From: a virus
IMG/VR virus record: IMGVR_UViG_3300030099_007922
Coordinates: 6,294-27,845 of that record
Direction: 5' to 3' (one strand)
Length of the DNA stretch: 21,552 bases
Position numbers and translations under genes: made by a program
Part shown: positions 747 through 15,927 of the stretch, piece by piece
Layout of the letters: each line of letters starts with the position of its first letter
How positions within the stretch are numbered: position 1 is the first letter of the stretch
Notes under the pieces: generated by a model
The model's input: only the letters and a program-made list of their open reading frames with translations
Told to the model about the DNA's origin: nothing
Databases searched by the model: none

Positions 747-2077
747 AATCAACAGATAGTAAAGAACTTTTTATCTTAAAGATGGTGGAAGAATACATCA
801 ATGAAAAGGATAAGAATAAGACCTGGACAGCAGGAAAAGATTGGGTTAGATACGCTGGACCTTTTTTTGATAGTGATGAATATGTTAGATCCGTAAAATC
901 TCTTCTGAGTGGGTGGTTAGTTCTTGGTCAAGATGCTATCAAGTTTGAAAGAAAGTTTCCAAAGTTTTTTGGCAAGAAATTTGGAATATTGACAAATAGT
1001 GGATCAAGTGCAAATTTATTAATGATGGCATCGATGCGCTCAAAGAGGTTATACAACTTTCCGAAAGGCACGAAAGTCATAACTCCAGTTGCTGGATTTC
1101 CGACAACGATTAATCCAATATATCAGGTTGGTTTCGAACCTGTTTTTGTTGATATTGAATTGGGCACTTTGAACCTCGACTTGGATCAGTTGGAGGAAGC
1201 AGCAAAGGGAGGTGCGAAGATTCTAACATTTGCCCATGTTTTGGGAAATCCTCCAAATATGGATAGGGTGATGGATGTTGTTAAAAAGTATGATCTGGTT
1301 TTACTGGAGGATACTTGTGACGCACTCGGCGGTACCTACAAAGGCGAAATGCTTGGGTCTCATGGGGAGATGGCATCTTGTTCTTTTTATCCCGCTCATC
1401 ATATTACTATGGGCGAAGGCGGATTTGTTTCTACTAAAACCTGCGAACAGGAAAGGGTGGTAAGGAGTTTCAGAGAGTGGGGTAGGGGATGTTATTGTGT
1501 GGGAAAAGCGGCAAACCTGTTAAAAAATGGAACATGCAAAAACAGATTTGATAACTGGATCCCTACGTTACCTAATGAAATTTTTGATCACAAGTTTGTA
1601 TATGAGGAGATTGGGTACAACCTCAAACCAATCGAACTTCAGGCATCGATGGGGTTGGCGCAAATCGAGAAGATTGATACCATATCTGAAAGAAGAAAGT
1701 CAAACTACAGAAAGCTTTTTGATGTTTTTGAAAAGTATGAAGATCACCTTCATTTACCAAGACCTACGGAGCATTCCGACCCCAGCTGGTTTGCTTTTCC
1801 TATGACAGTGAAGGATGGTGCGCCTTTTAAAAGGTCTGACATCACATCTTACCTTGAGGACCACAAGATTCAAACACGCAACTATTTTGCGGGTAATATC
1901 ATGCTTCAACCTGCATATGATCACTTAGCAGACACCAGTGAAATAATTAAAAAGTTTCCTGTCTCTAGAAAGGTCACTACCGACACTTTCTTCTTGGGCA
2001 CCAGTCCTGTTATTACATCTGAGCAAATTGAATATGTCGGATCTGTTGTAGATAAGTTTATGAGAGATGAAATATAA
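740..2077 (+). CDS. CDP-4-keto-6-deoxyglucose 3-dehydrase-like (E1/RfbH type, DegT aminotransferase fold)
   Basis: This 445-aa protein belongs to the DegT/DnrJ/EryC1 fold, close to E1 (RfbH/DdhC/AscC, about 437 aa). E1 removes the C3 hydroxyl of a 4-keto-6-deoxy CDP-sugar using PMP and a [2Fe-2S] cluster on the way to 3,6-dideoxyhexoses. The usual PLP lysine is replaced by histidine in SFYPAHHITMGEGG (H220), the hallmark of this dehydratase group. Cysteines follow C-X57-C-X1-C-X12-C. The E1 iron-sulfur pattern I recall is C-X57-C-X1-C-X7-C, so three cysteines match exactly and the fourth is displaced by a five-residue insertion. Other matches are LTNSGSSANLL near the N-terminus and GYNLKPIELQA. 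I chose the GTG at 740 because GGGGAG (728-733) lies 6 nt upstream and it overlaps the previous stop. An in-frame GTG at 683 would add 19 residues inside the preceding gene. The reductase partner (E3) is not in the window. Confidence 0.85.
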   Translation: MVKSTDSKELFILKMVEEYINEKDKNKTWTAGKDWVRYAGPFFDSDEYVRSVKSLLSGWLVLGQDAIKFERKFPKFFGKKFGILTNSGSSANLLMMASMRSKRLYNFPKGTKVITPVAGFPTTINPIYQVGFEPVFVDIELGTLNLDLDQLEEAAKGGAKILTFAHVLGNPPNMDRVMDVVKKYDLVLLEDTCDALGGTYKGEMLGSHGEMASCSFYPAHHITMGEGGFVSTKTCEQERVVRSFREWGRGCYCVGKAANLLKNGTCKNRFDNWIPTLPNEIFDHKFVYEEIGYNLKPIELQASMGLAQIEKIDTISERRKSNYRKLFDVFEKYEDHLHLPRPTEHSDPSWFAFPMTVKDGAPFKRSDITSYLEDHKIQTRNYFAGNIMLQPAYDHLADTSEIIKKFPVSRKVTTDTFFLGTSPVITSEQIEYVGSVVDKFMRDEI

Positions 2078-2691
2078 TGGGGATGACAGATAATCAGATA
2101 GTGGAACAGTACTCATCGGTTGTTAGTGGTATTTTGAATGAACTTCCGGTTGGTTCTAGGGTTGCTTGGTTGGGACAAAAGCACCCTTCGATGGGGCAAG
2201 ACAAGCTTTTGTATGATTCCATAATGTCAGGAGTGAACAACGATCTATATCACACATTCTACGATTTAAACAATGAGGTATATGAGGGATCAGTTAAATG
2301 GGACGTCCACTCAAAGTGGGATATAGGCGGATATGATTTGGTTCTTGGGTTAAGGGTTTTATATTTATGTGACTCTAGGGAGAGACTTCTGTCTAACTTA
2401 AAGAATATATCTGCAAACAACGATACGGTGATTTTTGATTTTATGACTGGCAATCCCGTTGCGATTAATGGTATTGAATGTTTCATGAAAAAAAATAGCA
2501 GTCCAACAATTCTCCCATTTTTTGAAGAGTTGTATGAGGGGTCATTCGATGTATCTTCAAATCACGGAGATCAGATTGTTACGCTACAGCACATTAAATC
2601 TAGTGGGATGAACATAAAAAACATATTAACTTTTAGAGATGGTGTTAAAAGAAGATTTTATACGTTATGTGAGGTGGGAAGTGAATCTTAA
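2077..2691 (+). CDS. Unrecognised protein, possible degenerate Rossmann/methyltransferase-like fold
   Basis: I do not recognise this 204-aa protein with confidence. Its predicted strand order resembles a class I methyltransferase: a first strand at about 27-33 (SRVAWLG), an acidic end of a second strand near HTFYDLN (59-65), a YDLVLGLRVLYLC strand (86-98), a TVIFDFMTG strand (117-125) and a final RFYTLCEV strand (193-200). The GxGxG SAM-binding loop is missing, so it may be a non-catalytic or very divergent relative. It starts in the stop codon of the dehydratase (TAATG), with a second ATG at 2083 as an alternative. Its 3' end overlaps the next gene. Context suggests a role in glycan assembly; the chemistry is unknown. 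Confidence 0.6.
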   Translation: MGMTDNQIVEQYSSVVSGILNELPVGSRVAWLGQKHPSMGQDKLLYDSIMSGVNNDLYHTFYDLNNEVYEGSVKWDVHSKWDIGGYDLVLGLRVLYLCDSRERLLSNLKNISANNDTVIFDFMTGNPVAINGIECFMKKNSSPTILPFFEELYEGSFDVSSNHGDQIVTLQHIKSSGMNIKNILTFRDGVKRRFYTLCEVGSES

Positions 2692-3697
2692 TTTTTTTCT
2701 TAGAGAAATGACTCACCTTAGATACTATGCCCCTGTCATTAGGGAGGGTAATGCTAGGGGTGCAAAGTCTACTTTTTACGTTGTTCCGTCTGGAAAATAC
2801 AATTGTCCATTTACTCACCAAAAAAAGTTAGAAACATTCTGCAAACAAAATCTTGTTTCTGTTGGGTCTATTAATGAAATCCTTAATTGTCAAGATTATC
2901 TTTTTACTTCTGAAGAGTCGGGGATTGATATTATTAAACGCAACAAAAAAGCAAAAAAGATATCAATGACATATCAAACAGATTTTATTAAATCTTATAA
3001 AAATTATTTTAATCATGTAGATAACATACTGATGCCTAGTAGGAATATTGCAGATTTTTATGGATTGCATAATTCAAAAAATTTATATGTTGGTATACCG
3101 AAATATGATATCGAATTGGACGAAACTTTGATCTGTGAAAAATACAAATTAAATAAAGATGAAAAAAAGGTGCTTTTTGTTTGGCCAAAAACGAGAGACT
3201 TACACAAATTTCCTATTGATATTATTAATAATTTTAACGAATTGGGTTGGCGAGTTCTGATTAAAGCTAGAGCAAAAGATCCAGTCTCTCAGGGTACAAA
3301 AAAATCTATGGAAGAAAAAGGAAATCACATCTTTTATGATGATTGGTACCCTCACACATCTCAAGAATTACTTGAGGTGTCCAATCTTGTTGTTAATTGC
3401 GGTTCAACAACAATAGAGGAGTGTGTTATGCACGAGGTTCCTTTAATTAATTTTGATATAAAACCCTCTATCCGACATGGGCAGAAACAACCTTACCGAG
3501 TTACACATTCTTATTTATATGACTATGACTTTTGTCTAAACCTTAAGTCTCTAAATTCCTCGTTTAGTACATCTAAATTGGAGTTAATGACTGCAGATTT
3601 GTTTTCAAGAGATTTAAATTCTTCTTTTAAGCAGTGTAAGGAAGATTGGTTGTACGATCACAAAAATGCTTGTAAAAACTTACTTGATGTGATATGA
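2681..3697 (+). CDS. Putative GT-B-fold glycosyl/glycerophosphotransferase
   Basis: From GTG 2681 this is 338 aa. The clearest signature is in the C-terminal half: VVNCGSTTIEECVMHEVPLI, the S/T-rich nucleotide-sugar loop and following acidic helix seen in GT-B enzymes such as CDP-glycerol glycerophosphotransferases and UDP-GlcNAc 2-epimerase-like proteins. Before it come KKVLFVWPKTRD (start of the second Rossmann domain) and GWRVLIKARAKDP. The N-terminal half has an NILMPSR segment consistent with the first GT-B domain. GTG 2681 is preferred because GAGGTG (2671-2676) lies 4 nt upstream and it overlaps the previous stop by only 11 nt; ATG 2639 in the same frame would add 14 residues and a 53-nt overlap. 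Donor and acceptor are not readable. It probably acts at the cytoplasmic side of the membrane. Confidence 0.7.
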   Translation: MNLNFFLREMTHLRYYAPVIREGNARGAKSTFYVVPSGKYNCPFTHQKKLETFCKQNLVSVGSINEILNCQDYLFTSEESGIDIIKRNKKAKKISMTYQTDFIKSYKNYFNHVDNILMPSRNIADFYGLHNSKNLYVGIPKYDIELDETLICEKYKLNKDEKKVLFVWPKTRDLHKFPIDIINNFNELGWRVLIKARAKDPVSQGTKKSMEEKGNHIFYDDWYPHTSQELLEVSNLVVNCGSTTIEECVMHEVPLINFDIKPSIRHGQKQPYRVTHSYLYDYDFCLNLKSLNSSFSTSKLELMTADLFSRDLNSSFKQCKEDWLYDHKNACKNLLDVI

Positions 3698-3704
3698 TAC
3701 CGTT

Positions 3705-4274
3705 ATGAAAGTGATAGCAATAATACCCGCCCGTGGCGGATCTAAGAGACTACCTAGAAAAAATATATTTCCTATATGGGGAAAACCATTGATCTATTGG
3801 TCAATAAAAGCAGCAAAGGAAAGCAAATACATCACAGATGTGTGGGTTTCTACTGAGGATGACGAGATAGCACGGATTGCAATCAAAAATGGTGCAAAAG
3901 TACACAGAAGGGACGCGAAACTTTCAAAAGATCACGTTTACAAGATGGAAGCAATTCGAGACACTATTTCTTATTTAGAAGATAATGAACTTGAAGCAAA
4001 TGTTTATATTTCTTTGCAAGCGAACTCTCCAGAGATAACTTCTGGTATACTTGATGATAGTATAGAGGTGTTCTTGGAAAATGACAGAAATGAATTAATA
4101 AGTGTGGGACCTGACCTGATGCAAAATGCAGCATTTAGGATCTTAAAAAGAGGATATGCACACCAAAAAGACTTGAGCACTAAGTGCGGGGTTTACATGT
4201 GTAACATTCATGATGTGCACACACTTGAAGATGTAAAGTTTATAGAAGAGAGAAATGCTGACTTCACCAGGTAA
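3705..4274 (+). CDS. CMP-N-acylneuraminate cytidylyltransferase-like (short NeuA-type)
   Basis: This 189-aa protein begins with the diagnostic nucleotide-binding motif IIPARGGSKRLPRKN (residues 6-20) of CMP-sialic acid/CMP-KDO synthetases. It continues with GKPLIYWSIKAA, DVWVSTEDDEIA and the family-like AKVHRRDAKLS segment, then YISLQANSP where relatives have LQPTSPLR. These enzymes activate a nonulosonic acid with CTP to the CMP-sugar used by glycosyltransferases. It is shorter than usual (about 225-235 aa), mainly in the C-terminal dimerisation part. No clear Shine-Dalgarno sequence precedes ATG 3705, and the gap after the previous stop is 7 nt. The 3' end overlaps the deacetylase by 20 nt. 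The NeuB-like gene at 5620 would supply its substrate. Confidence 0.85.
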   Translation: MKVIAIIPARGGSKRLPRKNIFPIWGKPLIYWSIKAAKESKYITDVWVSTEDDEIARIAIKNGAKVHRRDAKLSKDHVYKMEAIRDTISYLEDNELEANVYISLQANSPEITSGILDDSIEVFLENDRNELISVGPDLMQNAAFRILKRGYAHQKDLSTKCGVYMCNIHDVHTLEDVKFIEERNADFTR

Positions 4275-4938
4275 AGTTTTAATTTTTGCAGCACACCAGG
4301 ACGATGAGACTATAGGGTGCGGCGGAACAATAAAAAAATGGTCCGACTTGGGAAGCGAAATACACGTTTGTTTCATCACAGATGGTGCCACTGGGGTAGA
4401 GCAGGGCACAGATGGTCGCGACATAATTACAACCAGGATGCTTGAGGCAAACAAAGCGGGGAAGATTCTTGGTGTACATAAAATACATAATTTAGGACTC
4501 CCATGTCAAAGTGTTGTTAATGATCAAAAAACGTTCCACAAAGTAATACAAAAAATAAGAGAAGTGAAGCCAGACTTGGTTATTACGCACAATCAAGTTT
4601 GTAAGCACAGGGATCACAAGGTAACTTCGGCTGTGGTGGAGGAATCTTGCTGGAAAGCGTCAGAAAATATATTAGAGGAGTTGGGTAATGTACACATGGT
4701 TCGGGCCGTATGGTCTTTTGAAATTTTGGATCCTTTTGATAACCCTGACTATGTTGTGGATATTACTGAGCAATATGAACAAAAGATAAAAGCGTTCGAT
4801 GTTTACCACTCACAGTCAGAAATATTAGGAGACATACACAGATATATGGACGGTATTACCAAGGTTAGGGGTTATGCAATAGGAACTCACCGTGGAGAGT
4901 CTTTTAAAAGAATAGGAAGAATTCCAAGTAAACTATGA
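4255..4938 (+). CDS. PIG-L/LmbE family sugar N-deacetylase
   Basis: This 227-aa protein fits the PIG-L (LmbE) zinc deacetylase family. AAHQDDE (12-18) supplies H14 and D17, followed by the glycine-rich TIGCGGTI. The second zinc motif is CKHRDH (116-121), with H121 as the probable third ligand, preceded by DLVITHN. Family members remove N-acetyl groups from GlcNAc-type sugars in glycolipid or cofactor precursors. It overlaps the NeuA-like gene by 20 nt, and its stop overlaps the next start (ATGA). The next gene is a formyltransferase, which suggests a two-step exchange of N-acetyl for N-formyl on one sugar; this is inference. GAAGAGAG just upstream may serve as ribosome binding site. Confidence 0.87.
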   Translation: MLTSPGKVLIFAAHQDDETIGCGGTIKKWSDLGSEIHVCFITDGATGVEQGTDGRDIITTRMLEANKAGKILGVHKIHNLGLPCQSVVNDQKTFHKVIQKIREVKPDLVITHNQVCKHRDHKVTSAVVEESCWKASENILEELGNVHMVRAVWSFEILDPFDNPDYVVDITEQYEQKIKAFDVYHSQSEILGDIHRYMDGITKVRGYAIGTHRGESFKRIGRIPSKL

Positions 4939-5636
4939 GATGTATAGCAATAACTTCCAATCAGATTAGACACCAAGAGTTTGTAAAAAGAGTGCAAAAA
5001 CATGTGGACTTAGACCTTATAGTCTCAGTTGAGAAAAAATGCGGAGACTCTAGGTTTTGTACTTCTGAGCGATTATTCTTTAAGGGAAGAAAGGAACAGA
5101 AGGGAAACTGGGTAGAGTGCGATTCAATTCAGATTCACTCTAGAAGGATGATAGAGATGATTGCTGGTTTAAGTCCGGATGTGTGTTTTGTGTTTGGCGC
5201 ACCACTTTTAAAAAAATCAATATTTAAAATCCCTAAACATGGATGTATAAATATTCACACCGGATTGGTACAACATCATAGGGGCGTCGACAGTCCTTAT
5301 TGGGCACTGTACGAAGAAAAACCGGAAACAATTGGAGCAACGTTACATTATATAGACTCTTCAATTGATGGCGGCGGAGTAATAGACCAGTCTAAAACAA
5401 AGGGTATATCTGAAACAGACTCACCAGAAAATATTTTTATGAAAACTTGTGCAACAGGGTTTGACATTTTGGAAAAAAACATGTATGATATATTAAACAA
5501 CACTGTGAAGTCACAAACAATTAAACCTCCGGGAAAACTTTATCAAAAAAAAGATATGTGCTACGGAACAATGTTAAAGATTAGAAACAAGACATCTCGA
5601 TTGTTAAAGGAGTTCGTAAATGAAAATTATAGTTGA
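4935..5636 (+). CDS. Formyltransferase (10-formyl-THF dependent), probably sugar N-formyltransferase
   Basis: This 233-aa protein has the formyl_trans_N signature: DVCFVFGAPLL (82-92), INIHTG (105-110) with N106 and H108, HHRGVDSPYWAL (114-125), then IGATLHYID and SIDGGGVI with D145. N106, H108 and D145 match the Asn-His-Asp triad of methionyl-tRNA and sugar formyltransferases in order and spacing. A C-terminal tRNA-binding domain as in Fmt is not evident, and the setting between a deacetylase and a nonulosonate synthase points to N-formylation of an amino sugar using 10-formyltetrahydrofolate. It is coupled to the deacetylase by a 4-nt ATGA overlap and overlaps the NeuB-like gene by 17 nt. 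The sugar substrate is unknown. Confidence 0.86.
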   Translation: MRCIAITSNQIRHQEFVKRVQKHVDLDLIVSVEKKCGDSRFCTSERLFFKGRKEQKGNWVECDSIQIHSRRMIEMIAGLSPDVCFVFGAPLLKKSIFKIPKHGCINIHTGLVQHHRGVDSPYWALYEEKPETIGATLHYIDSSIDGGGVIDQSKTKGISETDSPENIFMKTCATGFDILEKNMYDILNNTVKSQTIKPPGKLYQKKDMCYGTMLKIRNKTSRLLKEFVNENYS

Positions 5637-6336
5637 TCTTTGCAACCAGCATCATGGGTCTTTAAAGGAGCTTAAAAGAATGTCTCTTAATGCTTTTTTA
5701 TCAGGAGCAGATGCTGTAAAGGTACAGTTGATGGATTCTGAAAAACTGCTCAATACCAAAGAGAAAAAGTATAGAGATATTAATTTTCAAGATGCGTATG
5801 AATTATCAAAATATTGTGATGATTTGGGAATAGAATTCATGGCATCTGTATTTGATGAGGATAGGTTTTATTGGTTGGATGATCTAGGAGTTCGCACACA
5901 CAAGATTGCAAGCAGAACTTCAAAGCACGACAAGCATCTTTCAGAATTGATATTGTCTGATGGCAAACCAACAATTATCTCAACCGGTATGCACGATTTT
6001 ACAGAATTTCCATACGGACACAGCAATCAGATTGATTATCTTTTTTGTGTATCAAAATATCCAACATTTATAGATGATGAAAAATTAGCAAAAATGCCCT
6101 TTTTTAAGCGTCCGGGGTACTCGGGGTATAGTGATCATACAATTGGCATCGGCGCCGCCTTACGCGCCCATACTCGCGGCGCTAAGATACTTGAGAAGCA
6201 TTTTTCAAATAATATTAATTCGCAAACAAAACTTGAGGGTGGACATCTTGGGTCTTTTGATCAAAATTCTTTAAGACAGTTTGTTAATATAACCAAACAG
6301 TTAGAGATTATGGAGAAATGTGGTGAGTTTAAGTAA
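5620..6336 (+). CDS. N-acetylneuraminate synthase-like (NeuB family), catalytic domain only
   Basis: This 238-aa protein covers the NeuB TIM barrel: DLCNQHHGS near the N-terminus, GADAVKVQL (29-37), EFMASVFDE (72-80), HKIASRTSKHD, IISTGM (119-124), CVSKYPT (143-149), GYSDHTIGIGAA and AKILEKHF. H173 and H194 are 21 residues apart, matching the Mn-binding histidines as I recall them for meningococcal NeuB. NeuB enzymes condense PEP with an N-acetylhexosamine-type sugar to give a nonulosonic acid. The usual C-terminal SAF (antifreeze-like) domain is absent; full-length relatives are about 340-350 aa. The family's PDH motif after EKHF is replaced by LEGGHLGSFD. It overlaps both neighbours by 17 nt. 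A GC-rich patch with an inverted repeat lies in the gene at 6145-6182. Confidence 0.87.
   Translation: MKIIVDLCNQHHGSLKELKRMSLNAFLSGADAVKVQLMDSEKLLNTKEKKYRDINFQDAYELSKYCDDLGIEFMASVFDEDRFYWLDDLGVRTHKIASRTSKHDKHLSELILSDGKPTIISTGMHDFTEFPYGHSNQIDYLFCVSKYPTFIDDEKLAKMPFFKRPGYSGYSDHTIGIGAALRAHTRGAKILEKHFSNNINSQTKLEGGHLGSFDQNSLRQFVNITKQLEIMEKCGEFK
6145..6182 (+). repeat. GC-rich patch with 7-bp inverted repeat inside the NeuB-like gene
   Basis: GCGCCGC (6152-6158) and GCGGCGC (6176-6182) are exact reverse complements around a 17-nt loop. The patch uses GGC, GCC and CGC codons, unlike the AT-rich codons around it, and encodes the conserved GIGAALRAHTRGA stretch. Confidence 0.5.
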
Positions 6337-6949
6337 TCCTGATGTTTCCGTTATAATCACAAACTATAACTATGGAAAGTATGTTTCTCGCGCCGTTCGA
6401 AGTTGCTTGAACCAGTCAAGTGTCAATCACGAGGTTATTGTTGTAGATGATTGTAGTACTGACGGATCTTTAGAGGTTTTACAAACATTTGAAAATGATA
6501 TAAAAGTGGTAAGCACTGGTGCAAATTCTGGAGTTGCAGTCGCAGCAAATCTTGGCGTAAAGCATAGTAGGGGACAGTTTTTTATTCGTGTAGACGCAGA
6601 TGATTATGTAAATTCAGACATGTGTTATATGATGAAAACTTATCTTGAGGCAAATCATGATGCGTTTTGTGTTTCTTGTGATTATATTATGGTTGACAAT
6701 TATGAAAACACCTTAGAGAGAAAGTATGCGGAGCATGAAAACATATCGTGTGGCATAATGTATCGTAGGGATCTTTTCTTGCAGATGGGTGGATATAATA
6801 CCAAGATGCGCCATCGGGAGGAAGAGGAACTGAGGAAGCGGTTAGGCGGCGATTATAAAATTCATCATTTAAGAATTCCTTTTTATAGATATAGAATGCA
6901 CGAATCCAACAAAACAAAAGAACCAGAATATGAAACTTGGGAGATATAA
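6320..6949 (+). CDS. Family 2 glycosyltransferase (GT-A fold)
   Basis: This 209-aa protein starts with VSVIITNYNYGKYVSRAV and continues with EVIVVDDCSTDGS, the N-terminal nucleotide-binding part of GT2 enzymes. The metal-binding DXD appears as RVDADDYV, and YRRDLFLQMGGYN plus MRHREEEEL give the usual acceptor/base region (ED-like acidic residues). It would transfer a sugar from an NDP-sugar to the growing glycan at the cytoplasmic side of the membrane. The start is GTG 6320 or the adjacent GTG 6323, with GGAG at 6312-6315; the 7-nt spacing favours 6323, which removes one residue. It overlaps the NeuB-like gene by 17 nt. It is short for the family but its catalytic core is complete. Confidence 0.9.
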   Translation: MVSLSNPDVSVIITNYNYGKYVSRAVRSCLNQSSVNHEVIVVDDCSTDGSLEVLQTFENDIKVVSTGANSGVAVAANLGVKHSRGQFFIRVDADDYVNSDMCYMMKTYLEANHDAFCVSCDYIMVDNYENTLERKYAEHENISCGIMYRRDLFLQMGGYNTKMRHREEEELRKRLGGDYKIHHLRIPFYRYRMHESNKTKEPEYETWEI

Positions 6950-6952
6950 AGA

Positions 6953-7633
6953 ATGACAAAGAAAATTTTTATTACAGGATGTGCCAAGTCAGGCACCACT
7001 TTATTGTTGAGAATGTGTTATGCATTTGAAGATGTCGATATACTCTATCGTCGAGGTTTTGATGGACATGAATTGCCATTTGATGAATTCGTTAAGTACA
7101 CTAGTGATAAAAAATTTATAATAGGCAAAAGACACCCACCAGCACTTTTAAGTAATGTACTTACAAAGACTTTGGACGATCAGTACGACGTTGTTAAAAG
7201 AAATAATATTGCGATTATAAATGTTGTTAGGGATGGTAGAGATGTAGTGTTGTCTGATGGTAATTATGTAAAACCGCAAAGGTGGATTGAAAGCATCAAG
7301 CAGAGAGATTTCTACAAAGACGTTATCAAAATGGAAGTAAGGTATGAGGACTTGATAAGAAATCCGGAAAAAGTACAAAAGCAGATGGAAGATATATTTG
7401 GCATGCAGTCTTCTCATCAGTTTGCAGATTATCCTGATTATGTGGAGGATTGGGTTTTTGAATGGAATGTTTCAATATTAGGAAGGCAGGGAAAATCAAA
7501 CGAAACAAATTATGGTAAGAGAAAATTGAGTGATAAAAGTGTTGGAAAAGACCTCGAAGCGTATAAAGATCTATGCTCTGATATAGAACGTCCAGAGTTT
7601 GATAGTTGTTTACAAGAATTGGAGTATATGTAG
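6953..7633 (+). CDS. Sulfotransferase (PAPS-dependent type)
   Basis: This 226-aa protein has the 5'-phosphosulfate-binding loop GCAKSGTTLL (9-18), the 3'-phosphate-binding segment VVRDGRDVVLS (91-101) and VRYEDLIRNPE (129-139), the three landmarks of cytosolic/Golgi-type and bacterial sulfotransferases. Such enzymes move sulfate from PAPS to a hydroxyl or amine on a carbohydrate or lipid. In this cassette the likely acceptor is the glycan being built, so the product would be a sulfated surface sugar; this is inference. No PAPS-making genes are in the window, so the host would supply the donor. It begins 3 nt after the glycosyltransferase stop and directly abuts the next gene. Confidence 0.88.
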   Translation: MTKKIFITGCAKSGTTLLLRMCYAFEDVDILYRRGFDGHELPFDEFVKYTSDKKFIIGKRHPPALLSNVLTKTLDDQYDVVKRNNIAIINVVRDGRDVVLSDGNYVKPQRWIESIKQRDFYKDVIKMEVRYEDLIRNPEKVQKQMEDIFGMQSSHQFADYPDYVEDWVFEWNVSILGRQGKSNETNYGKRKLSDKSVGKDLEAYKDLCSDIERPEFDSCLQELEYM

Positions 7634-8518
7634 ATGAGACCTCTGATTACTGGTTACCGTGGATATATCGGCACTAATTTGTTTAGTAAATTAAATGATA
7701 AAGGGATAGATTGGATTGGCATTGACATTAAGGATGGTTATGCTGATGATGATCTATGTAGAATAACGAGAATTCCAGATAGAATAAGAGATTTTAATCC
7801 AGATGTTATTTTTCACTTGGCAGCAATTCCAAGGGTGGCATATAGTGTGGAGAATCCGTTGGAAGTCATGAAAAACAATATTGTATCAACGTCAATCATA
7901 TTAGAATACGCAAAAGAAAAAAACATTCCAGTAATTTACAGCAGTTCTTCATCTGTAGTTGGGAATGGTGATGGTCCTGCCAGTCCTTATGCTTTATCAA
8001 AGTATGTTGGTGAGTTGGAGACATTATTGTACAATAAGTTGTATGGACTTAAGACAGTGGCGTTGAGATACTTTAATGTTTATTCGTATGATCAGGTTGC
8101 CGATAGTGAGTACGCCACAGTTGTTTGCAATTGGAAGAAGCACATCAAGTATGGCAACGTTCCATATATTACTGGTGATGGCGAACAAAGAAGGGACATG
8201 ACTCACGTAGATGATATTGTGTCAGCAAATATTTTCTGCGCAGAAAACATTGAAAAGGAGGATCTTTGGGGTCACTGGTACGATATTGGTTCGGGACAGA
8301 ATATTTCTTTAAATGAACTAAAAGAAATTGTGTTACAATATTTTCCAGAGCAACAATTTAAATACGTCGAATCACGCTCTGGAGATGTCATGTTAACAAA
8401 AGCAGATTTGTCCAAGCTTGAAGCGCATGGGTGGAAGAGTAAGGTGGATTTACAAACTGGACTACATTCAATTTATAGAATTCTTAAGGAGGATATTGAT
8501 AATGGGAAAAGAAATTAA
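7634..8518 (+). CDS. NAD-dependent sugar epimerase/dehydratase (extended SDR)
   Basis: This 294-aa protein is a complete extended SDR. The NAD loop GYRGYIG is at 7-13, the acidic end of the second strand is D31, and DVIFHLAA is at 57-64. The serine run SSSSS (103-107) and YALSK give the catalytic Ser-Tyr119-Lys123 set. LRYFNVY (144-150) and QRRDMTHVDDIVSA (185-198) are typical of UDP-glucose and UDP-GlcNAc 4-epimerases such as WbpP, which are somewhat longer (about 340 aa). It probably interconverts a UDP-hexose or UDP-HexNAc, but the exact substrate cannot be assigned. It directly follows the sulfotransferase stop and overlaps the methyltransferase by 17 nt. Confidence 0.9.
   Translation: MRPLITGYRGYIGTNLFSKLNDKGIDWIGIDIKDGYADDDLCRITRIPDRIRDFNPDVIFHLAAIPRVAYSVENPLEVMKNNIVSTSIILEYAKEKNIPVIYSSSSSVVGNGDGPASPYALSKYVGELETLLYNKLYGLKTVALRYFNVYSYDQVADSEYATVVCNWKKHIKYGNVPYITGDGEQRRDMTHVDDIVSANIFCAENIEKEDLWGHWYDIGSGQNISLNELKEIVLQYFPEQQFKYVESRSGDVMLTKADLSKLEAHGWKSKVDLQTGLHSIYRILKEDIDNGKRN
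8486..8492 (+). promoter_or_regulatory. Strong ribosome binding site that decides the start at 8502
   Basis: AAGGAGG lies 9 nt before ATG 8502, within the 3' end of the epimerase gene. It fixes the methyltransferase start; an in-frame ATG at 8418 would add 28 residues that overlap the epimerase by about 100 nt and do not resemble the family. Confidence 0.85.
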
Positions 8519-9140
8519 TTTCAATCATTGGAAAAATGCAAAATATGGTAATCCTAAAACGCACTATACAGAAGTTAAAATAGCGCCAAAACAAGAAAGA
8601 ACAGATGCGTTGTTGGACATTGTAAAAAAGTATGAAGTTGACACTGGCAGTAAGTTTAGCAAAATTTGTGAATTTGGTTGCAATAATGGTAGAAATTTGA
8701 TGCCATTTTATCACCTCGGTATAGATGTTTATGGGTATGACATCTGTGAATCTTCTTTGGATGCATCAAGAGATTCTATGGAGAGGTGTTCGGGTAATTT
8801 TAAAAATGTAGATCTTTTTAACCAATACTCTGAGTTGGCGCCAATACCAGACAATTATTATGATTTTTCATTTACTATGGGTTTTTTAATGCACTTGCCG
8901 AAAAGTGAAAATAAAAGTTCATTAATTAACGAAATCATCAGAGTATCTAAGAATGTCTTAGTATACGAACCATCCAAACTTGGCGGAATTGAAGAAAGTG
9001 ATTTATCACAGGATGGTTGGCACTTAAGTATGATGGATTACGATGAGTGTGATTCTCGATTCCAACAGTTAGATATAACGCACACTGTGTCTGAAAATGC
9101 ACTCATGAAAGTGTGGTTTCTTCAAAAAGAGGTATTATGA
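8502..9140 (+). CDS. SAM-dependent class I methyltransferase
   Basis: This 212-aa protein starts at ATG 8502 behind a perfect AAGGAGG. Motif I is CEFGCNNGRNLM (56-67), a form of ExGxGxGxN; the second strand ends in YGYD with D80, the expected ribose-binding acid. NVDLFNQ, YYDFSFTMGFLMHL and the NVLVYEP strand follow in the expected order for Methyltransf_11/23-type enzymes. In this cassette the probable target is a sugar hydroxyl or a similar small acceptor, although sugar methyltransferases cannot be told from other small-molecule types here. It overlaps the epimerase by 17 nt, and its TGA overlaps the next ATG by 4 nt. Confidence 0.85.
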   Translation: MGKEINFNHWKNAKYGNPKTHYTEVKIAPKQERTDALLDIVKKYEVDTGSKFSKICEFGCNNGRNLMPFYHLGIDVYGYDICESSLDASRDSMERCSGNFKNVDLFNQYSELAPIPDNYYDFSFTMGFLMHLPKSENKSSLINEIIRVSKNVLVYEPSKLGGIEESDLSQDGWHLSMMDYDECDSRFQQLDITHTVSENALMKVWFLQKEVL

Positions 9141-10021
9141 AATTAGGTATTATTGGCAATGGTTTCGTGGGTAATGCGATTGCACACGCTTTTATACCGT
9201 GTATGGAAGTTAAAATATATGACAAAGATTCTGAAAAGTCTTTTAATACTTTAGACGAGGTGGTAAACGATTCAGATGTTGTGTTTATTTCTGTACCAAC
9301 CCCAATGAGTCAAAATGGTGTTATTGATCTATCGATAGTGGAGAGTGTTTTTAAAGACATCGAAAAAGCAAAAAACAAAGAATCAGATGTAATCTTTGTT
9401 CTTAAGTCTACTGTTGTGCCTGGTACTACGAGATCGATAAAAGAAAAGCACAAAAAATTAAGAATTGTGTTTAATCCCGAGTTCTTAACAGAGAGGCATG
9501 CAAGGTTTGATTTTCTTAACCAGTCTAGAATTATCCTTGGGTTTGAAAATGATATCGATGTTGGTAATGGGCACACACATAGGGACGTTCAGGTTGTGCA
9601 ATCTTTGTATAATGAGAGGTTTTCTGGAAACAATTTCATCGTTACGAATTATGAGACCGCTGAGATGATCAAGTATTTTAATAATTTATTTTTTGCTGTT
9701 AAAGTTTCGTTTATGAACGAGATGAAGATGGTTTCTGATAAATTGGAGATTATCAATTGGGGCAAAGCAGTAAGAGGTTTTGTCAGTGATGGGCGCATAG
9801 GTGATTCTCATTTGCAGGTACCTGGACCTGACGGCAAAAGGGGTTTCGGAGGGTCTTGTTTTCCTAAAGATATAAACGCATTTATGACGTTTACAGATTC
9901 GATTGGTTTAGACCTTTCGCTTTTAAAGGGAGCATGGAAAACCAATCTACATGTAAGACCGGAAAGAGATTGGGAAAAATTAGAAGGAAGAGCAGTTAGC
10001 AAAAAAGGAGAAGTAAAATGA
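9137..10021 (+). CDS. UDP-glucose/GDP-mannose dehydrogenase family, short form
   Basis: From ATG 9137 (GAGG at 9129-9132, ATGA overlap with the previous stop) this is 294 aa. It has GIIGNGFVGNA (4-14) for NAD binding, SVPTP, KSTVVPGTT, VFNPEFLTE, AEMIKYFNNLFFAVKVSFMNE (about 175-195, with conserved K179), and GGSCFPKDINAF with the catalytic nucleophile C241. These are the marks of enzymes that oxidise UDP-glucose to UDP-glucuronate, or similar NDP-sugars. Usual members are 390-440 aa; here the protein ends about 50 residues after the catalytic cysteine, so the C-terminal UDP-binding domain is missing. It may still work as a short form, bind a different nucleotide, or need a partner. It is the last glycan gene and overlaps the next gene by 4 nt. 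Confidence 0.87.
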   Translation: MKLGIIGNGFVGNAIAHAFIPCMEVKIYDKDSEKSFNTLDEVVNDSDVVFISVPTPMSQNGVIDLSIVESVFKDIEKAKNKESDVIFVLKSTVVPGTTRSIKEKHKKLRIVFNPEFLTERHARFDFLNQSRIILGFENDIDVGNGHTHRDVQVVQSLYNERFSGNNFIVTNYETAEMIKYFNNLFFAVKVSFMNEMKMVSDKLEIINWGKAVRGFVSDGRIGDSHLQVPGPDGKRGFGGSCFPKDINAFMTFTDSIGLDLSLLKGAWKTNLHVRPERDWEKLEGRAVSKKGEVK

Positions 10022-10475: not shown

Positions 10476-10783
10476 TTTTAGAAACAATACTGGCACTTTC
10501 TATTGTATTGAATGTGTTTTTGATTTTTTATTCAATTAGGATTGCTAGAAAACTTTTTGTTGTAGGTACAAACATGGAAGCTCTTTCTGGTGCCTTTCTA
10601 TCGTTTAGAAATCATGTGGAGAGTGTACATGAAGCTGAGATGTTTTATGGTGATCAAACTCTACAGTCTCTTATACAGCACTCAAAGGATGTTTTGACTT
10701 TGCTTGATGAGTATGAGGATCTTATGGCGATGGTATCAGAAGAAGAAGGGGAAGAAGAGCAGTATGCCGAAGAAGAAGACTAA
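10472..10783 (+). CDS. Small membrane-anchored protein with acidic tail
   Basis: This 103-aa protein has one N-terminal hydrophobic segment (about residues 3-22, ETILALSIVLNVFLIFYSI), probably a signal anchor, followed by a helical soluble part containing AEMFYGDQTLQSLIQHSKDV. It ends in an extremely acidic tail, SEEEGEEEQYAEEED. I do not know a named family. The central segment seems reminiscent of small conserved proteins of T4-like marine phages, but this is only an impression. It is coupled to the zinc-ribbon gene by ATGA. Its last 20 nt overlap the start of the sigma-like gene, where the GAA/AAG-rich DNA is read in two frames. Confidence 0.75.
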   Translation: MILETILALSIVLNVFLIFYSIRIARKLFVVGTNMEALSGAFLSFRNHVESVHEAEMFYGDQTLQSLIQHSKDVLTLLDEYEDLMAMVSEEEGEEEQYAEEED

Positions 10784-11456
10784 CTATTATTTCACAAGTG
10801 TTCACGAGAATGCAATAGTGGAATATTGTTCGGTAGAGGATCGTTCCAAGAGAGAGCAGATTTATATTGAATATATACAACCTGCATTTAGTGAGATGGT
10901 GGATAAGATAATCTACACTTATAAGTTTACAAATATACCAAATATAGATTTTTTAAAAGAGGATTGTAAAATTTGGTTAACAACGATTTTAAGCAAGTAC
11001 GACCCAAATAGGGGTTCTAAAGCATTTTCATACTTTTCAGTTATAACCAAACACTGGTTCATTCATCAATTAAAGAAACACTCTACAAAAATTAAGAGGG
11101 AGGTTTCCTACAACGATATTGTTAAAGAGCATGCGCATGAAAAACTTATTTATAATGATGTCACATATATTCAAAAAAGGCAAAAGCATGAGTTTTGGAC
11201 AAACCTAAGAAAAGAAGTTACTCGATGGAAAGAGTCCAACTTATTCACAAAGGATAACGAGAAAAAGGTTATAACTGCAGTTGAAATACTTTTAGACAAT
11301 GTTCAAGATATTGACATTTTAAATAAAAAAGCAGTTTATCTATACCTAAGGGAGATGACGGGGTTAAAAACAAAACAAATCGTTAACACTTTGAATAAAA
11401 TGAGGGAAAGATATAAATATTTTATTATCAAATATGAACGGGGTGATAAATTTTAG
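10764..11456 (+). CDS. 55: T4 gp55-like late-transcription sigma factor
   Basis: From ATG 10764 this is 230 aa; an in-frame ATG at 10704 would add 20 residues that overlap the upstream gene. The core is DPNRGSKAFSYFSVITKHWF (about 80-99), the region-2 helix of sigma-70-type proteins in the form seen in T4 gp55 relatives. A basic stretch HSTKIKREVSYND and a helical C-terminal part with LREMTGLKTKQIVNTLNK follow. gp55 directs host RNA polymerase to late promoters with a TATAAATA box, helped by gp33 and the sliding clamp. It is somewhat longer than T4 gp55 (185 aa). It precedes the structural genes, and a TATAAATA box lies in its own 3' end. Family call fairly sure; the orthology is inferred from the motif. 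Confidence 0.8.
   Translation: MPKKKTNYYFTSVHENAIVEYCSVEDRSKREQIYIEYIQPAFSEMVDKIIYTYKFTNIPNIDFLKEDCKIWLTTILSKYDPNRGSKAFSYFSVITKHWFIHQLKKHSTKIKREVSYNDIVKEHAHEKLIYNDVTYIQKRQKHEFWTNLRKEVTRWKESNLFTKDNEKKVITAVEILLDNVQDIDILNKKAVYLYLREMTGLKTKQIVNTLNKMRERYKYFIIKYERGDKF
11412..11419 (+). promoter_or_regulatory. Possible T4-type late promoter (TATAAATA)
   Basis: An exact TATAAATA, the T4 late-promoter -10 core, lies 56 nt before ATG 11475, the first gene of the structural block. Copies at 5246-5253 and 18044-18051 lie deep inside genes, and about two copies per strand are expected by chance in DNA this AT-rich, so only the position makes this one attractive. Confidence 0.35.
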
Positions 11457-11474: not shown

Positions 11475-11783
11475 ATGAAAACAAAACAGTCAGTACAGGA
11501 ACTAATAGACGCAGCAACAACAAATGTCCAAGACGACAGAGCTGCCACGAAGGTACTTCTCATGAATTTGATGAAGTATATGCAATCAACTGACGACCGC
11601 CATCGAGAAGTTGGTCTAGTGGCAGCAAAATATCTAGAAACCCTCCAAAGATCCAACGAGCAATTGGTAAAAATTGCAGCACTGGTTCAAAAAAAGGCAT
11701 CAAACGAACAAGATACATCAATTTCAGAAGAAGAAAGGGACGAATTGTTTGAGATGATCAACTCTGACATGGAGGAAGATTGA
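11475..11783 (+). CDS. Small helical phage protein, possibly terminase small subunit or assembly factor
   Basis: This 102-aa protein is predicted to be almost entirely helical: a first helix (residues 5-17), a long amphipathic one from DDRAATKVLLMNLMKYM through VAAKYLETLQRSNEQLVKIAALVQKK, and an acidic C-terminal helix (EEERDELFEMI). The arrangement and its place at the head of the late genes recall small terminase subunits and small assembly chaperones, but no diagnostic motif is visible, so the function is not assigned. It begins 18 nt after the sigma-like gene with a weak AGGA next to the start. It ends in a TGATG overlap with the amidase gene, whose GGAGGA ribosome binding site lies inside this gene. 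Confidence 0.7.
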   Translation: MKTKQSVQELIDAATTNVQDDRAATKVLLMNLMKYMQSTDDRHREVGLVAAKYLETLQRSNEQLVKIAALVQKKASNEQDTSISEEERDELFEMINSDMEED

Positions 11784-14455
11784 TGGCATCGATTAGTAAA
11801 GACTTAATTGATAGGTTTCGAAGTCCTAACAGTGCAAACACTAGGATGCATGATAGTGTAGTGCCCAAAAACAGCACTATTGGCGGTTTCATATCAGATC
11901 TTGGTAGTATGACCAATGATGCATCAAGACCTCACCGTATCGATGACGGAATTAGTGGACTTAGGTACGCTCTTATACTTAAATCAGTCGAACTTGAAGG
12001 AGAGTATCAGATTCAAGATCCTGGTATAATTGATGTAGGATCAGTATTAAAAAATGGATCTGGGATATCGGATCCGATTCCTGTAAAACTTCACTATGGA
12101 ATTCCAGCTGGAACGACGTCTGCAATAATGGATATTAAACCTACTTCTGTGGATTTGTCAAAATGCTTTAGGTTTTACGAATTGCTGGATGATTACTCAT
12201 CCACACCAGCCGCCGACCGCACGGGGCAAGTTTGCAGAGTGGAAATGAAGGGCGTTACGCATGGACTTATAAAATCGTTTATGGATGAAACCCAAGATGG
12301 AAGTCCTGACGCTGAAAACACGGAATGCCCACCAGGACAAACTTGCGACTCGGCAACTTCATCGAGAACTGGACCCGGAGGCAGAAGACGTCCTGGCAGG
12401 ACTTCGCTTAGTCCTGCCAGCGCAGCTGCCTTTACTATTAACCCGCTAAAGATCTCAAAGAGTGGAACCCTTGTAGCGTCATCTCTTAGAGTGGTGCAGT
12501 ATCCTAGAGGATTTTATTGTAAACCATCTAACTGGCCTTCAAATTTAACATTTTTTAGCAATGGTAAATTTCCTAAAGGCAAAGAATCGATAGTGTATTT
12601 TGTATTGCATGAAACAGGCGGATGGAACGAGATCCAGGCAGAAAAAAGTATGCTCTTAAAAGGCGGCGGCGTTCACTTTATGTCAGGCGGACACCCAGGA
12701 TTGCGAGCAAAGCAGCAAGGCAAAGACGGCGGCAGGTTGTCATTCCAGTTCAGCAAAAAATCAACTTCAAGAATGCCGGAACAGGATTGGTTTAAAATTT
12801 TTAAATATTTGCCTTATGAGCAAAAGTTGTACCACTGCCCCGGCGCTAACTCAAATGGTATTGGGGTTGAATTTTGTAATCCGTTTTTTTCTGTTTTGCC
12901 ATATTTGGAGGACCCACCCAAAAAAAGAGGCAATAGAAAACACAATTTCGACAACAAAAATATGTATCAACAAGAGATTTCTCGCACAAGATGGCATGGG
13001 TGTGGAGGTTTTAAAAATAGAAAAGTGCAAAACACTTACGTAATTCCACCAGCTGCGCAATTTGAATCTGCATACGCTCTTTCTTTAAAGGTTTGTGAGG
13101 ATATTCCGTCTATAGATAAGATAACTGCTTCATATCGAATACTTGAAAATTCTCAATGGTTTGTAAGGGATGATTTACCATCAGGAAAATATTCTTTTTC
13201 AGCTACTCGAATGTCAACTAATATTGGATTTGTTGAAGAGCAGTGCCCCCCTGGCCGCCGAGGAAGGGCATGCCGCCGACGCAATAAATTGAAAAGAAAA
13301 AAACACAAAGAAACAGATCTATATGATGATACCACTCGATCTCGCATGGGCGTTAAAATTAGGGATATGCAATCAGATATAGACGCTGGAGTGTATGCCC
13401 CTATGGATGAACCGACTTATGAATCACGACATAAAATAAAAACATATAGAAATGGAACCAAAGTCGTTGAGCGCATTGGAGGCAAAGGCACCCAACCCTA
13501 TAAATCAGGAATGAAAGGGTTGGAAAAAGTAGGAAAAATAAAAATGGTAGAAGGTGACCAACATGTTTTTTACTGGATCATGGGAGACTTAAAAAGAAAG
13601 CGTGGAAAAAAGGGTGACGGTGGCGATAGAAGCAAACATATACTTGGAAGAAAGTCAGGGATAACTTCTCATCAAGCATTTGGCGGACATTCTGATGGAA
13701 AGCCTATGGAGTTATATGTACAATTAAGGTTGATGGGAAATAGTTCATCTTGGTCTTATGATATCGTTAAAAAAATAATTCTCACACATGGGTATGGACA
13801 AGTTAGAGACTCCAACGGAGTTCCATTGTTTGATATGCCCAAGGGTGTTGAAAAGTGGAAGGCGCATGTCATGGGTATTTCAAAAGACTCCGAGCCGGTT
13901 CTTAGTTGGAATGGTCGTGCTTTCGGTGCTGAAAAGATGCCTGATCAGATCGACTCACCAAAGCATTGGAACGTTTTAATATTGAACAACATTCCGGGTA
14001 TCAAATTGCTTAAAAAAGGCGAAGATGGATACGCTCCAAGACCAGACCAAGAAATAGAAGTAATAGACAGGCAGGCATCTGGATTTGCTCAAGATTGTGG
14101 AAAACCAGCACCAGTTTCTGCATTTCGCAAAGGCGGCGCAAAGGGTAAAAGTCTGGGCACACAAGGTGTGGGTAGTTATAGTCAAGCTAAAACTTTGTAT
14201 AAACATGGGGGCGTCGTTACTCTCGGCGGCGGTATGTCTGAAATTAGTCATAAAAGATATAAACCAGGAGAACTAACAGCAGAACAAGCGGTTATAGCTA
14301 CATATCCTCATCGACGCCGAGACCGGAAATTTATTGCCTCAATGGCGGCAAAACTCAGGGCGGAAGTTACTCACAGACCAACGAACCCGTGTCCAGCAGG
14401 TCAAATCGTCGGCGGCAATAACCCGGATGGGTCAGTGTTCTGCGTACCCGGCTGA
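11783..14455 (+). CDS. Tail/baseplate protein with N-acetylmuramoyl-L-alanine amidase-type domain
   Basis: This 890-aa protein starts at ATG 11783 (GGAGGA at 11771-11776, TGATG overlap); a TTG at 11780 is less likely. Residues 1-180 form an N-terminal domain of unknown family. An Amidase_2/PGRP-like domain starts near 220: IVYFVLHETGG (H276), GGGVHFMSGG and YHCPGANSNGIGVEFCNP (349-366), then RWHGCGG. Such enzymes cut the lactyl-amide bond of peptidoglycan during tail penetration or lysis. The usual C-terminal zinc His plus Asp/Cys are not at the expected distance; GITSHQAFGGHSDG (626-639) may supply them after a long insertion. Three Cys-bounded proline/glycine modules occur: ECPPGQTC (181-188), QCPPGRRGRAC (487-497) and CPAGQ...FCVPG at the end. 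No signal peptide is seen, which fits a virion-carried enzyme. Confidence 0.82.
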   Translation: MASISKDLIDRFRSPNSANTRMHDSVVPKNSTIGGFISDLGSMTNDASRPHRIDDGISGLRYALILKSVELEGEYQIQDPGIIDVGSVLKNGSGISDPIPVKLHYGIPAGTTSAIMDIKPTSVDLSKCFRFYELLDDYSSTPAADRTGQVCRVEMKGVTHGLIKSFMDETQDGSPDAENTECPPGQTCDSATSSRTGPGGRRRPGRTSLSPASAAAFTINPLKISKSGTLVASSLRVVQYPRGFYCKPSNWPSNLTFFSNGKFPKGKESIVYFVLHETGGWNEIQAEKSMLLKGGGVHFMSGGHPGLRAKQQGKDGGRLSFQFSKKSTSRMPEQDWFKIFKYLPYEQKLYHCPGANSNGIGVEFCNPFFSVLPYLEDPPKKRGNRKHNFDNKNMYQQEISRTRWHGCGGFKNRKVQNTYVIPPAAQFESAYALSLKVCEDIPSIDKITASYRILENSQWFVRDDLPSGKYSFSATRMSTNIGFVEEQCPPGRRGRACRRRNKLKRKKHKETDLYDDTTRSRMGVKIRDMQSDIDAGVYAPMDEPTYESRHKIKTYRNGTKVVERIGGKGTQPYKSGMKGLEKVGKIKMVEGDQHVFYWIMGDLKRKRGKKGDGGDRSKHILGRKSGITSHQAFGGHSDGKPMELYVQLRLMGNSSSWSYDIVKKIILTHGYGQVRDSNGVPLFDMPKGVEKWKAHVMGISKDSEPVLSWNGRAFGAEKMPDQIDSPKHWNVLILNNIPGIKLLKKGEDGYAPRPDQEIEVIDRQASGFAQDCGKPAPVSAFRKGGAKGKSLGTQGVGSYSQAKTLYKHGGVVTLGGGMSEISHKRYKPGELTAEQAVIATYPHRRRDRKFIASMAAKLRAEVTHRPTNPCPAGQIVGGNNPDGSVFCVPG
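12393..12420 (+). repeat. Intragenic 10-bp perfect inverted repeat (stem-loop)
   Basis: CTGGCAGGAC and GTCCTGCCAG are exact reverse complements separated by TTCGCTTA (8 nt). The GC-rich stem lies in the amidase gene between the first CPPG module and the amidase domain. No U-run follows, so it is not an intrinsic terminator. Confidence 0.7.
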
Positions 14456-14486: not shown

Positions 14487-14774
14487 ATGATGTATGCTAA
14501 AATGAACAACAAAGCAGAAATAGTTGTGATACAAACTAATCCGGATCAATTTAACAGGGTTGTATCAACAAAGATATTTAAAGATATGGAAAAGTTTAAG
14601 GAGTCTGCTGATTGGGTTGCTTTTGATCAGGGTCCATCAAAAATGATAAACACGAAAGAAGAGATGGAAAAGATGATGAAGGCACACGCTGAACAAAAAT
14701 TAAAAAGGTCACTAGAGTCAGCTGAATCAGTTCCGATGACCGATGATAGATCTAGTACCGGATACCAGGCATGA
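14487..14774 (+). CDS. Small late-region protein of unknown function
   Basis: I do not recognise this 95-aa protein. It has a possible beta start (MMYAKMNNKAEIVVIQTN), a middle part with FKDMEKFKESADWVAFDQGP, and a helical, charged C-terminal half (KEEMEKMMKAHAEQKLKR) ending in a Ser/Asp-rich tail. No membrane segment or cysteine is present. AAGGAG at 14471-14476 precedes the start by 10 nt, and a second ATG follows immediately. It lies between the amidase protein and the spike-like protein, so a minor tail or baseplate role is plausible but unproven. The 64 nt after its stop hold only a short palindrome (TGATAA-T-TTATCA at 14795-14807) and no clear terminator. Confidence 0.7.
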   Translation: MMYAKMNNKAEIVVIQTNPDQFNRVVSTKIFKDMEKFKESADWVAFDQGPSKMINTKEEMEKMMKAHAEQKLKRSLESAESVPMTDDRSSTGYQA

Positions 14775-14838: not shown

Positions 14839-15927
14839 ATGAGTGATGAAACATTTGAAATGCAAGACGGACCACCTGAAGGTGAAGAATCTGAAAAGAC
14901 GTCTGATATCACTGAAGAACTTGAAGAAGCAAAACATAAGGCTCGTCGGTATCAAAATGATAGGCAACTAAAAAATAGAAAATCTCCTTTAAACAGGGGA
15001 AGGGAAAATACGCGCCCTGAAAAGAAAAAGTCTGAACTAAGAGCAGAAAATTCTGGGTATTTTGATAAGCAAAAAATTGAGGAAGTTCCTGGATTTAAAT
15101 TGTGCAGTGGCGACGTGCCTCTTTCTGGAAAAAACAATCAATGGATAATATTTTGCCGTGACCGCCCAGCTGGGTATACTTCTGGTTACGGTCCCGGTCA
15201 AGGCGAAAACCAGGCCGGCGCAATTGATATGGTTGTCGGGCGTATGTCTCCACATCCAAGAAGCAAGAGACCTGACAATACTCCGATGAAAGTTGGACCA
15301 ATTTTTAATTCTGAAATGTATCGAGGTGATGAGGTTGTCGACGCAGCAAGAATATACATTTCACAAAGAACTGATATGGATCATAATTTCAAGTTATCTC
15401 CTGGGCGCATCGGTCGACCAAAAGATCGATCTGGCATATGTATGAAAGCTGACGGTGTTAGAATAATAGCAAGAGATGCCGGAATAAAATTAGTAACTCA
15501 GCACAATCAATTGATAAATTCAAGAGGCAATAGGTCAACTAAAATAAATGGCATTGATATTATTGCTGGTAATAATGCCGAAGATTTACAACCAATGGTT
15601 CTGGGTAATAATTTGGTTGAGTGCTTAACATCGCATGGGGTATTGTTGGACAGGATCGTCGGAACAATTGCAAGTTTGATTGAAAACATATCTGCACTTG
15701 ATTTGGCACTAGCAACACATATACATCCACAAGCATTCCCTGCAGGTATTCCAAACATTATTGATCCAAGAATTTGTTCCTCTGCTGTGTTATCGATATC
15801 TAAATTAGTAAGTCTTGATGCTTTTTCTGCTTTTGCAGAAAAATATTCAATAGAGAAAATAGACAAACAATATTTACAACCTGGTGGTGAACAGTCCATA
15901 CTAAGTTCCCACAATAACGTTAATTAA
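14839..15927 (+). CDS. Putative baseplate/spike-related virion protein
   Basis: This 362-aa protein has three parts. Residues 1-70 are highly charged and probably disordered (many Glu/Lys/Arg). Residues 85-260 contain NNQWIIFCRDRPAGYTSGYG (99-118), AGAIDMVVGRMSPHP and VDAARIYISQRTDMDHNF, then short repeating beta units (SGICMKADGVRIIARDAGIK, and NGIDIIAGNN) like those of beta-helical spike proteins. Residues 260-340 are helical and include THIHP, with H294 and H296. I associate this domain set with T4-like marine phage baseplate proteins, but I cannot give it a T4 gene number. AAGG lies about 9 nt upstream of ATG 14839. It is followed after 17 nt by the giant structural gene, which fits co-expression in the tail module. 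Confidence 0.7.
   Translation: MSDETFEMQDGPPEGEESEKTSDITEELEEAKHKARRYQNDRQLKNRKSPLNRGRENTRPEKKKSELRAENSGYFDKQKIEEVPGFKLCSGDVPLSGKNNQWIIFCRDRPAGYTSGYGPGQGENQAGAIDMVVGRMSPHPRSKRPDNTPMKVGPIFNSEMYRGDEVVDAARIYISQRTDMDHNFKLSPGRIGRPKDRSGICMKADGVRIIARDAGIKLVTQHNQLINSRGNRSTKINGIDIIAGNNAEDLQPMVLGNNLVECLTSHGVLLDRIVGTIASLIENISALDLALATHIHPQAFPAGIPNIIDPRICSSAVLSISKLVSLDAFSAFAEKYSIEKIDKQYLQPGGEQSILSSHNNVN

Follow-up and report, generated by a model that had tools for sequence, protein, structure and literature searches.

Amidases of the Amidase_2 superfamily, among them T7 lysozyme, AmpD and the PGRPs, hold three zinc ligands in the order H, H, D/C, of which the last two lie close together. In T7 lysozyme the ligands are H17, H122 and C130, and K128 is important for activity (PMC4573324). 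In phage T4 the wall is opened by another kind of enzyme, the tail lysozyme gp5, which belongs to a cell-puncturing device and in which an N-terminal domain precedes the catalytic domain (PMC3004832).

Here, a window of 21,552 nucleotides is analysed, namely positions 6294-27845 of a 68,265-bp IMG/VR virus record from an uncultured phage. One of its genes encodes an 890-aa protein, P0001, that probably serves as the cell-wall hydrolase in the virion of a phage from a distant T4-like lineage, a zinc amidase with the ligands H276, H630 and D638 and an accessory basic insertion. No description of this architecture was found in open-licence papers. The frame, on the plus strand, runs open from the ATG at 11783 to the stop at 14455, as an initial annotation of the window had it; GGAGG at 11771-11775 precedes the ATG, and the start codon overlaps the stop of the upstream gene. 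The features are collected in Table 1.

Table 1. Features of P0001 and its flanking genes (window positions; aa, residues of P0001; conservation counts refer to the 14-sequence alignment)
Feature	Position	Strand	Remarks
Late sigma-factor-like gene	10764..11456	+	Upstream anchor; PHROG 234, E 0.0018; 78% identity to L002
s98	11475..11783	+	Conserved gene of ~100 aa, kept across related loci; anchor directly upstream of the slot
P0001	11783..14455	+	N-terminal baseplate-adapter-like domain, predicted zinc amidase with long insertion, C-terminal region
N-terminal domain	11783..12307	+	aa 1-175; homologous to N-domains of slot proteins in L077, L007, L002, L109
CPPGQTC	12326..12346	+	aa 182-188; linker before amidase
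Amidase, first part	12575..13120	+	aa 265-446; profile of 13 relatives (single domain 265-668, 64.6 bits)
H276, predicted zinc ligand 1	12608..12610	+	14/14
H351	12833..12835	+	With N356 forms HxxxxN motif; invariant, 14/14
E363 of GVEF	12869..12871	+	Acidic in 14/14 (10 E, 4 D)
Inserted basic segment	13121..13558	+	~aa 447-592, borders +/- ~20 aa; gap in profile alignment; 22% K+R
CPPGRRGRAC	13244..13273	+	aa 488-497; within insertion
Amidase, second part	13559..13852	+	~aa 593-690; contains GITSHQAFGGHSDGKPMELY
H630, predicted zinc ligand 2	13670..13672	+	14/14
H636	13688..13690	+	Two before ligand 3, position of T7 lysozyme K128; basic (H/K/R) in 14/14
D638, predicted zinc ligand 3	13694..13696	+	14/14
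C-terminal region	13853..14377	+	aa 691-865
CPAGQIVGGNNPDGSVFC, C-terminal Cys module	14390..14443	+	aa 870-887
Putative baseplate hub/spike gene	14839..15927	+	Downstream anchor; 51-53% identity to L002 homolog

The baseplate slot and its contents

The giant ORF downstream of P0001 led to a second locus, L002, which has the same gene order and a different protein at the position of P0001. This order is late sigma gene, s98, one or a few slot ORFs, the hub-like gene and the giant ORF, and in L002 the giant ORF is followed by gp25- and gp6-like wedge genes, beside which the hub/spike homolog was assigned by operon position. A profile of the hub gene found no credible solved relative in the PDB. 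Searches with the late-sigma-like gene and s98 brought together 235 loci in all, s98 matching at least 588 IMG/VR loci. Since the loci were fetched through one or the other of these genes, the presence of the two is by construction. The sigma gene lies upstream of s98 in 226 of the 226 loci that have both, and the hub gene follows s98 in 212 of 212, with a gap in 183 and adjacent or overlapping in 29. Every amidase-subfamily match in the ~10-kb loci is located in the interval from s98 to the hub gene wherever both flanking genes are present, which is not by construction. By the late-sigma gene, the nearest cultured phages are Flavobacterium phage immuto and Microcystis phage Mel-JY01, at ~30% identity. 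The phage lineage of P0001 would be a distant T4-like one known mainly from metagenomes.

Related phages exchange the domain in the slot among amidase, M23, M15/VanY, M74, SLT transglycosylase, muramidase, GH46 and GDSL, and the flanks are conserved. Pfam domains of unlike wall or envelope hydrolases in 36 slot members were Amidase_2 (6), M23 (3), VanY (3), and GH46, SLT, Phage_lysozyme2 and GDSL (1 each); those in 45 further members were M23 (5), VanY (4), and GDSL, Amidase_2, Muramidase, M74 and DUF2272 (2 each). Because the slot holds such unlike wall hydrolases in related phages, P0001 is most likely the virion wall hydrolase of its phage. The initial annotation had called it a tail or baseplate protein, and its gene indeed lies within the baseplate operon between s98 and the hub-like gene.

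Slot ORFs come as tandem pairs in six loci (L014, L020, L102, L103, L116 and L126). An FtsZ/tubulin-like ORF with a GGGGGTGS motif lies between the late sigma gene and the slot in one locus (L022:4858-5967), and one Pfam Tubulin match appears in the slot tally. In the window, a 95-aa ORF at 14487-14774, between P0001 and the hub gene, is without counterpart there in L002.

P0001 resembles T4 gp5 as a wall hydrolase of a baseplate operon with an adapter-like N-terminal domain and a spike, its own spike-like gene being directly downstream. The catalytic domain is a lysozyme in gp5 and a predicted amidase in P0001, in which no lysozyme family was found in Pfam or PHROGs. The gp5 chain also carries a C-terminal beta-helix, whereas P0001 ends after its CPAG module and the candidate spike is a separate gene.

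Relatives of the amidase domain

Used as a direct query, P0001 found no relative in cultured phages, PHROGs or the PDB, and its own peptides found none in IMG/VR; relatives were reached via the neighbouring genes (giant ORF, late sigma, s98). A profile built from 13 amidase relatives in IMG/VR, P0001 being left out, matches P0001 collinearly as one domain, and the highest score among 1000 shuffled versions of P0001 was 3.4 bits against the same profile. The alignment takes the HSDG block as a continuation of the amidase domain and leaves a gap at ~447-580. The homologous second half was revealed by the compact slot amidases of L022 and L116 (GIIAHRHVSTHSDA, GLLAHSHISPSRRADG).

Against the PDB, the 14-member profile finds AmpDh2 (E 1.3e-10) and T7 lysozyme (E 2.6e-08), as well as AmiD, XlyA, PGRPs and AmpD; these matches span E 1e-10 to 1e-5, and their alignments cover the first half only. 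Pfam Amidase_2 (PF01510) gives P0001 alone 15.6 bits (E 0.021), which is below the 26-bit cut-off, whereas relatives lie above it (L116 35.9, L022 26.6, L230 41.1 and L182 48.7 bits). P0001 is therefore a divergent relative by transitivity and not a direct Pfam member, and its middle domain, judged from sequence, belongs to the Amidase_2/T7-lysozyme superfamily via its subfamily. The call of an amidase in the initial annotation is thus upheld by the subfamily match and by the PDB matches of the subfamily profile. One member of the subfamily had no match in bacterial genomes and only three weak, partial matches in cultured phages, two of them annotated as amidase or lysozyme.

Predicted zinc ligands

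The columns invariant in the alignment of P0001 with its 13 relatives are H276, H351, N356, G626, H630 and D638; H387, H405, C365, C407 and the CPxG cysteines are not conserved. H276, H630 and D638 supply the three ligands in superfamily order, the last two close, and since they are invariant in the relatives they form what is predicted to be a complete catalytic set. P0001 has the ligand order H...H-x7-D/C of the T7 lysozyme-AmpD-PGRP amidases and likewise a basic residue two before ligand 3, an HxxxxN motif and a SIGIE-like motif. The spacing of 8 between H122 and C130 of T7 lysozyme equals that of H630-x7-D638, and K128 matches H636. The differences are that ligands 1 and 2 are 105 residues apart in T7 lysozyme (PMC4573324) and 354 in P0001, that the Y46 position holds V297, and that P0001 has an HSDG motif whose Asp is the predicted ligand 3, as well as Cys-rich modules and extensive additional regions.

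Both amidase motifs that had been pointed out, H276 in VLHETGG and GANSNGIGVEF at 354-364, are present. The proposal of a metal site split between H276 and the distant GITSHQAFGGHSDG block agrees with the invariance of the ligands in 14 of 14 sequences. H632 and H636 had been named as the partners; the block was rightly chosen, and within it the first residue is actually H630 (TSHQ), H636 is auxiliary and D638 is the third ligand.

AlphaFold models of the full chain (10-row alignment, mean pLDDT 31.8) and of residues 205-765 (5-row alignment, mean pLDDT 37.4) are of too low confidence to judge ligand geometry either way; both runs used alignments from before the wider amidase family was collected. 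A Foldseek search with the full-chain model was uninformative because of this low confidence.

The inserted basic segment

The long ligand interval of P0001 is accounted for by an insertion of ~145 residues in the loop that runs from the helix behind the GVEF strand to the GITSH strand. It had been described as very basic and bounded by cysteines. The first holds, with 22% K+R and a net charge of +14 at 446-592; the second does not, as C488 and C497 are internal and there is no Cys at 498-771.

The distance from ligand 1 to ligand 2 is 144-305 in the relatives, being 144-172 in six (L182, L116, L230, L022, L210, L179), 190-252 in five (L174, L193, L212, L224, L173), 291 in L025 and 305 in L024. 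The extra length lies mainly from the Q-helix to ligand 2, where most have 44-94 residues, L025 has 150, L024 164 and P0001 205. L024 and L025 share with P0001 the slot, the amidase subfamily and a long insertion in the same loop, of 100+ residues at the same site; they differ in an insertion of dissimilar sequence, in having no CPxG and in their C-terminal region. The insertion of P0001 (~447-592) has no homolog among the related loci. The suggestion that this architecture is without parallel is not supported: P0001 is at the far end of a continuum of 144-354 and, on these alignments, reads as a stretched known enzyme within a known superfamily. A C-terminal region of unknown kind, absent in P0001, is apparently common to L024 (~aa 760-935) and L025 (~aa 770-947).

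Cysteine motifs and the C-terminal region

CPxG occurs at residues 182, 488 and 870 of P0001, with a second Cys 6, 9 and 17 positions later, respectively. Among 445,923 aa in 155 related loci (ORFs of at least 150 aa) the motif is found 10 times, three of them in P0001 and 7 elsewhere, and it is found nowhere else in the 68-kb record of P0001. A protein as long as P0001 would be expected to contain ~0.02, for a motif chosen post hoc. The three modules of the initial annotation are present, far above background in related loci; of their proposed location at domain borders and the C-terminus, two lie at domain edges and the one at 488 lies inside the insertion. The C-terminal Cys peptide has no match in the phage collection, and residues 691-865 before it have no homolog in Pfam or the related loci.

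It is doubtful that the insertion, together with the three CPxG-Cys modules, makes up a dedicated device for control or anchoring of the amidase. In such a device the insertion might keep the site open or blocked up to the moment at which the Cys loops become oxidised or encounter the periplasm; alternatively, the modules might pin P0001 to the wall. If true, the insertion between the zinc ligands would act as the switch of a virion amidase. Since virions are assembled in the reducing cytoplasm, disulfides would have to form after lysis, and caution is therefore called for with the idea of disulfide clasps.

The N-terminal domain and a possible mode of action

By phmmer, the N-terminal domain matches those of slot proteins in L077 (E 3.7e-36), L007 (E 2.6e-25), L002 (E 1.3e-23) and L109 (E 5.9e-09). 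The nearest three are fused to other C-terminal parts: the L002 protein has a conventional Amidase_2 domain (E 3.2e-15), and those of L007 and L077 have no Pfam match and carry HxxGxAxD motifs that by eye suggest M15 peptidases. A profile of the domain had no credible match in the PDB, and AlphaFold modelled its strands weakly (mean pLDDT 37 or less). An OB fold is suspected from its position and by analogy with gp5.

In the preferred explanation, this domain would dock P0001 in the baseplate hub, and the middle domain would be a zinc N-acetylmuramoyl-L-alanine amidase, with H636 and E363 as auxiliary catalytic residues, that may cut the MurNAc-L-Ala bond once the tail reaches peptidoglycan. 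The insertion would leave the enzyme intact and extend one wall of the active site; its most plausible role would be binding of the anionic wall or membrane.

Alternative explanations

P0001 could instead be an amidase-fold protein with lost or fading catalysis, its site disabled by the insertion, that serves as a structural or wall-binding part of the baseplate. Loss of ligands is known in the slot, where a 664-aa protein of L018 scores 50 bits against the family profile and shows R at the position of H276 and A at that of H630, and P0001 has the longest insertion of the family; yet it retains three ligands and both auxiliary positions, unlike L018, and this explanation is unlikely. A lysis endolysin, as opposed to a virion protein, is suggested by the frequency of Amidase_2 domains in endolysins. 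It is very unlikely in view of the 890-aa length of P0001, an N-terminal domain common to slot proteins with other hydrolases, the fixed place of its gene, which follows s98 and precedes the hub gene in the baseplate operon, and a record (G002) that has both a slot amidase and a separate 252-aa Amidase_2 gene elsewhere.

That the metal site is a conventional one within residues 220-450 and the HSDG block coincidental, the arrangement which the initial annotation had set against a split site, could be read from the Pfam alignment of residues 330-395 only. The other His candidates there after the GVEF strand are H387 and H405, and these are rejected as zinc ligands, each being conserved in 1 of 14 sequences against 14 of 14 for H630 and D638; moreover, the profile made without P0001 extends the domain through the HSDG block, and a conventional site is highly improbable. 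Equally improbable is an inserted segment that stems from a chimeric assembly or a frameshift pair or is a mobile element such as an intein. Its lack of a found homolog would suit such an origin, but the frame is open throughout, P0001 has no intein family match in Pfam, and long segments of other sequence occupy this site in L024 and L025. An artefactual insertion is rejected on the basis of matching G+C (0.397, against 0.406 and 0.388 in the amidase parts) and the absence of any but trivial tandem repeats.

The slot protein of L018 (6962-8953, identical in L032, L143 and L145) is itself a candidate pseudo-amidase in the baseplate slot.

Significance and wider context

As a probable virion amidase, P0001 illustrates how far the Amidase_2 scaffold may stretch between its metal ligands. 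One uncultured phage lineage, with its anchor gene in at least 588 IMG/VR loci, exchanges the catalytic domain and keeps the surroundings. The slot thereby offers virion hydrolases of differing chemistry already assembled on a common chassis, a useful set with which to ask how the entry enzymes of phages follow the wall chemistry of their hosts.

Upstream of the baseplate genes, at 683-10021 of the window, lies a sugar cluster with genes for a DegT aminotransferase, a cytidylyltransferase, a PIG-L deacetylase, a formyltransferase, NeuB, GT2, a sulfotransferase, an epimerase and a UDP-sugar dehydrogenase, which looks like a pathway for glycan synthesis of the nonulosonic-acid type.
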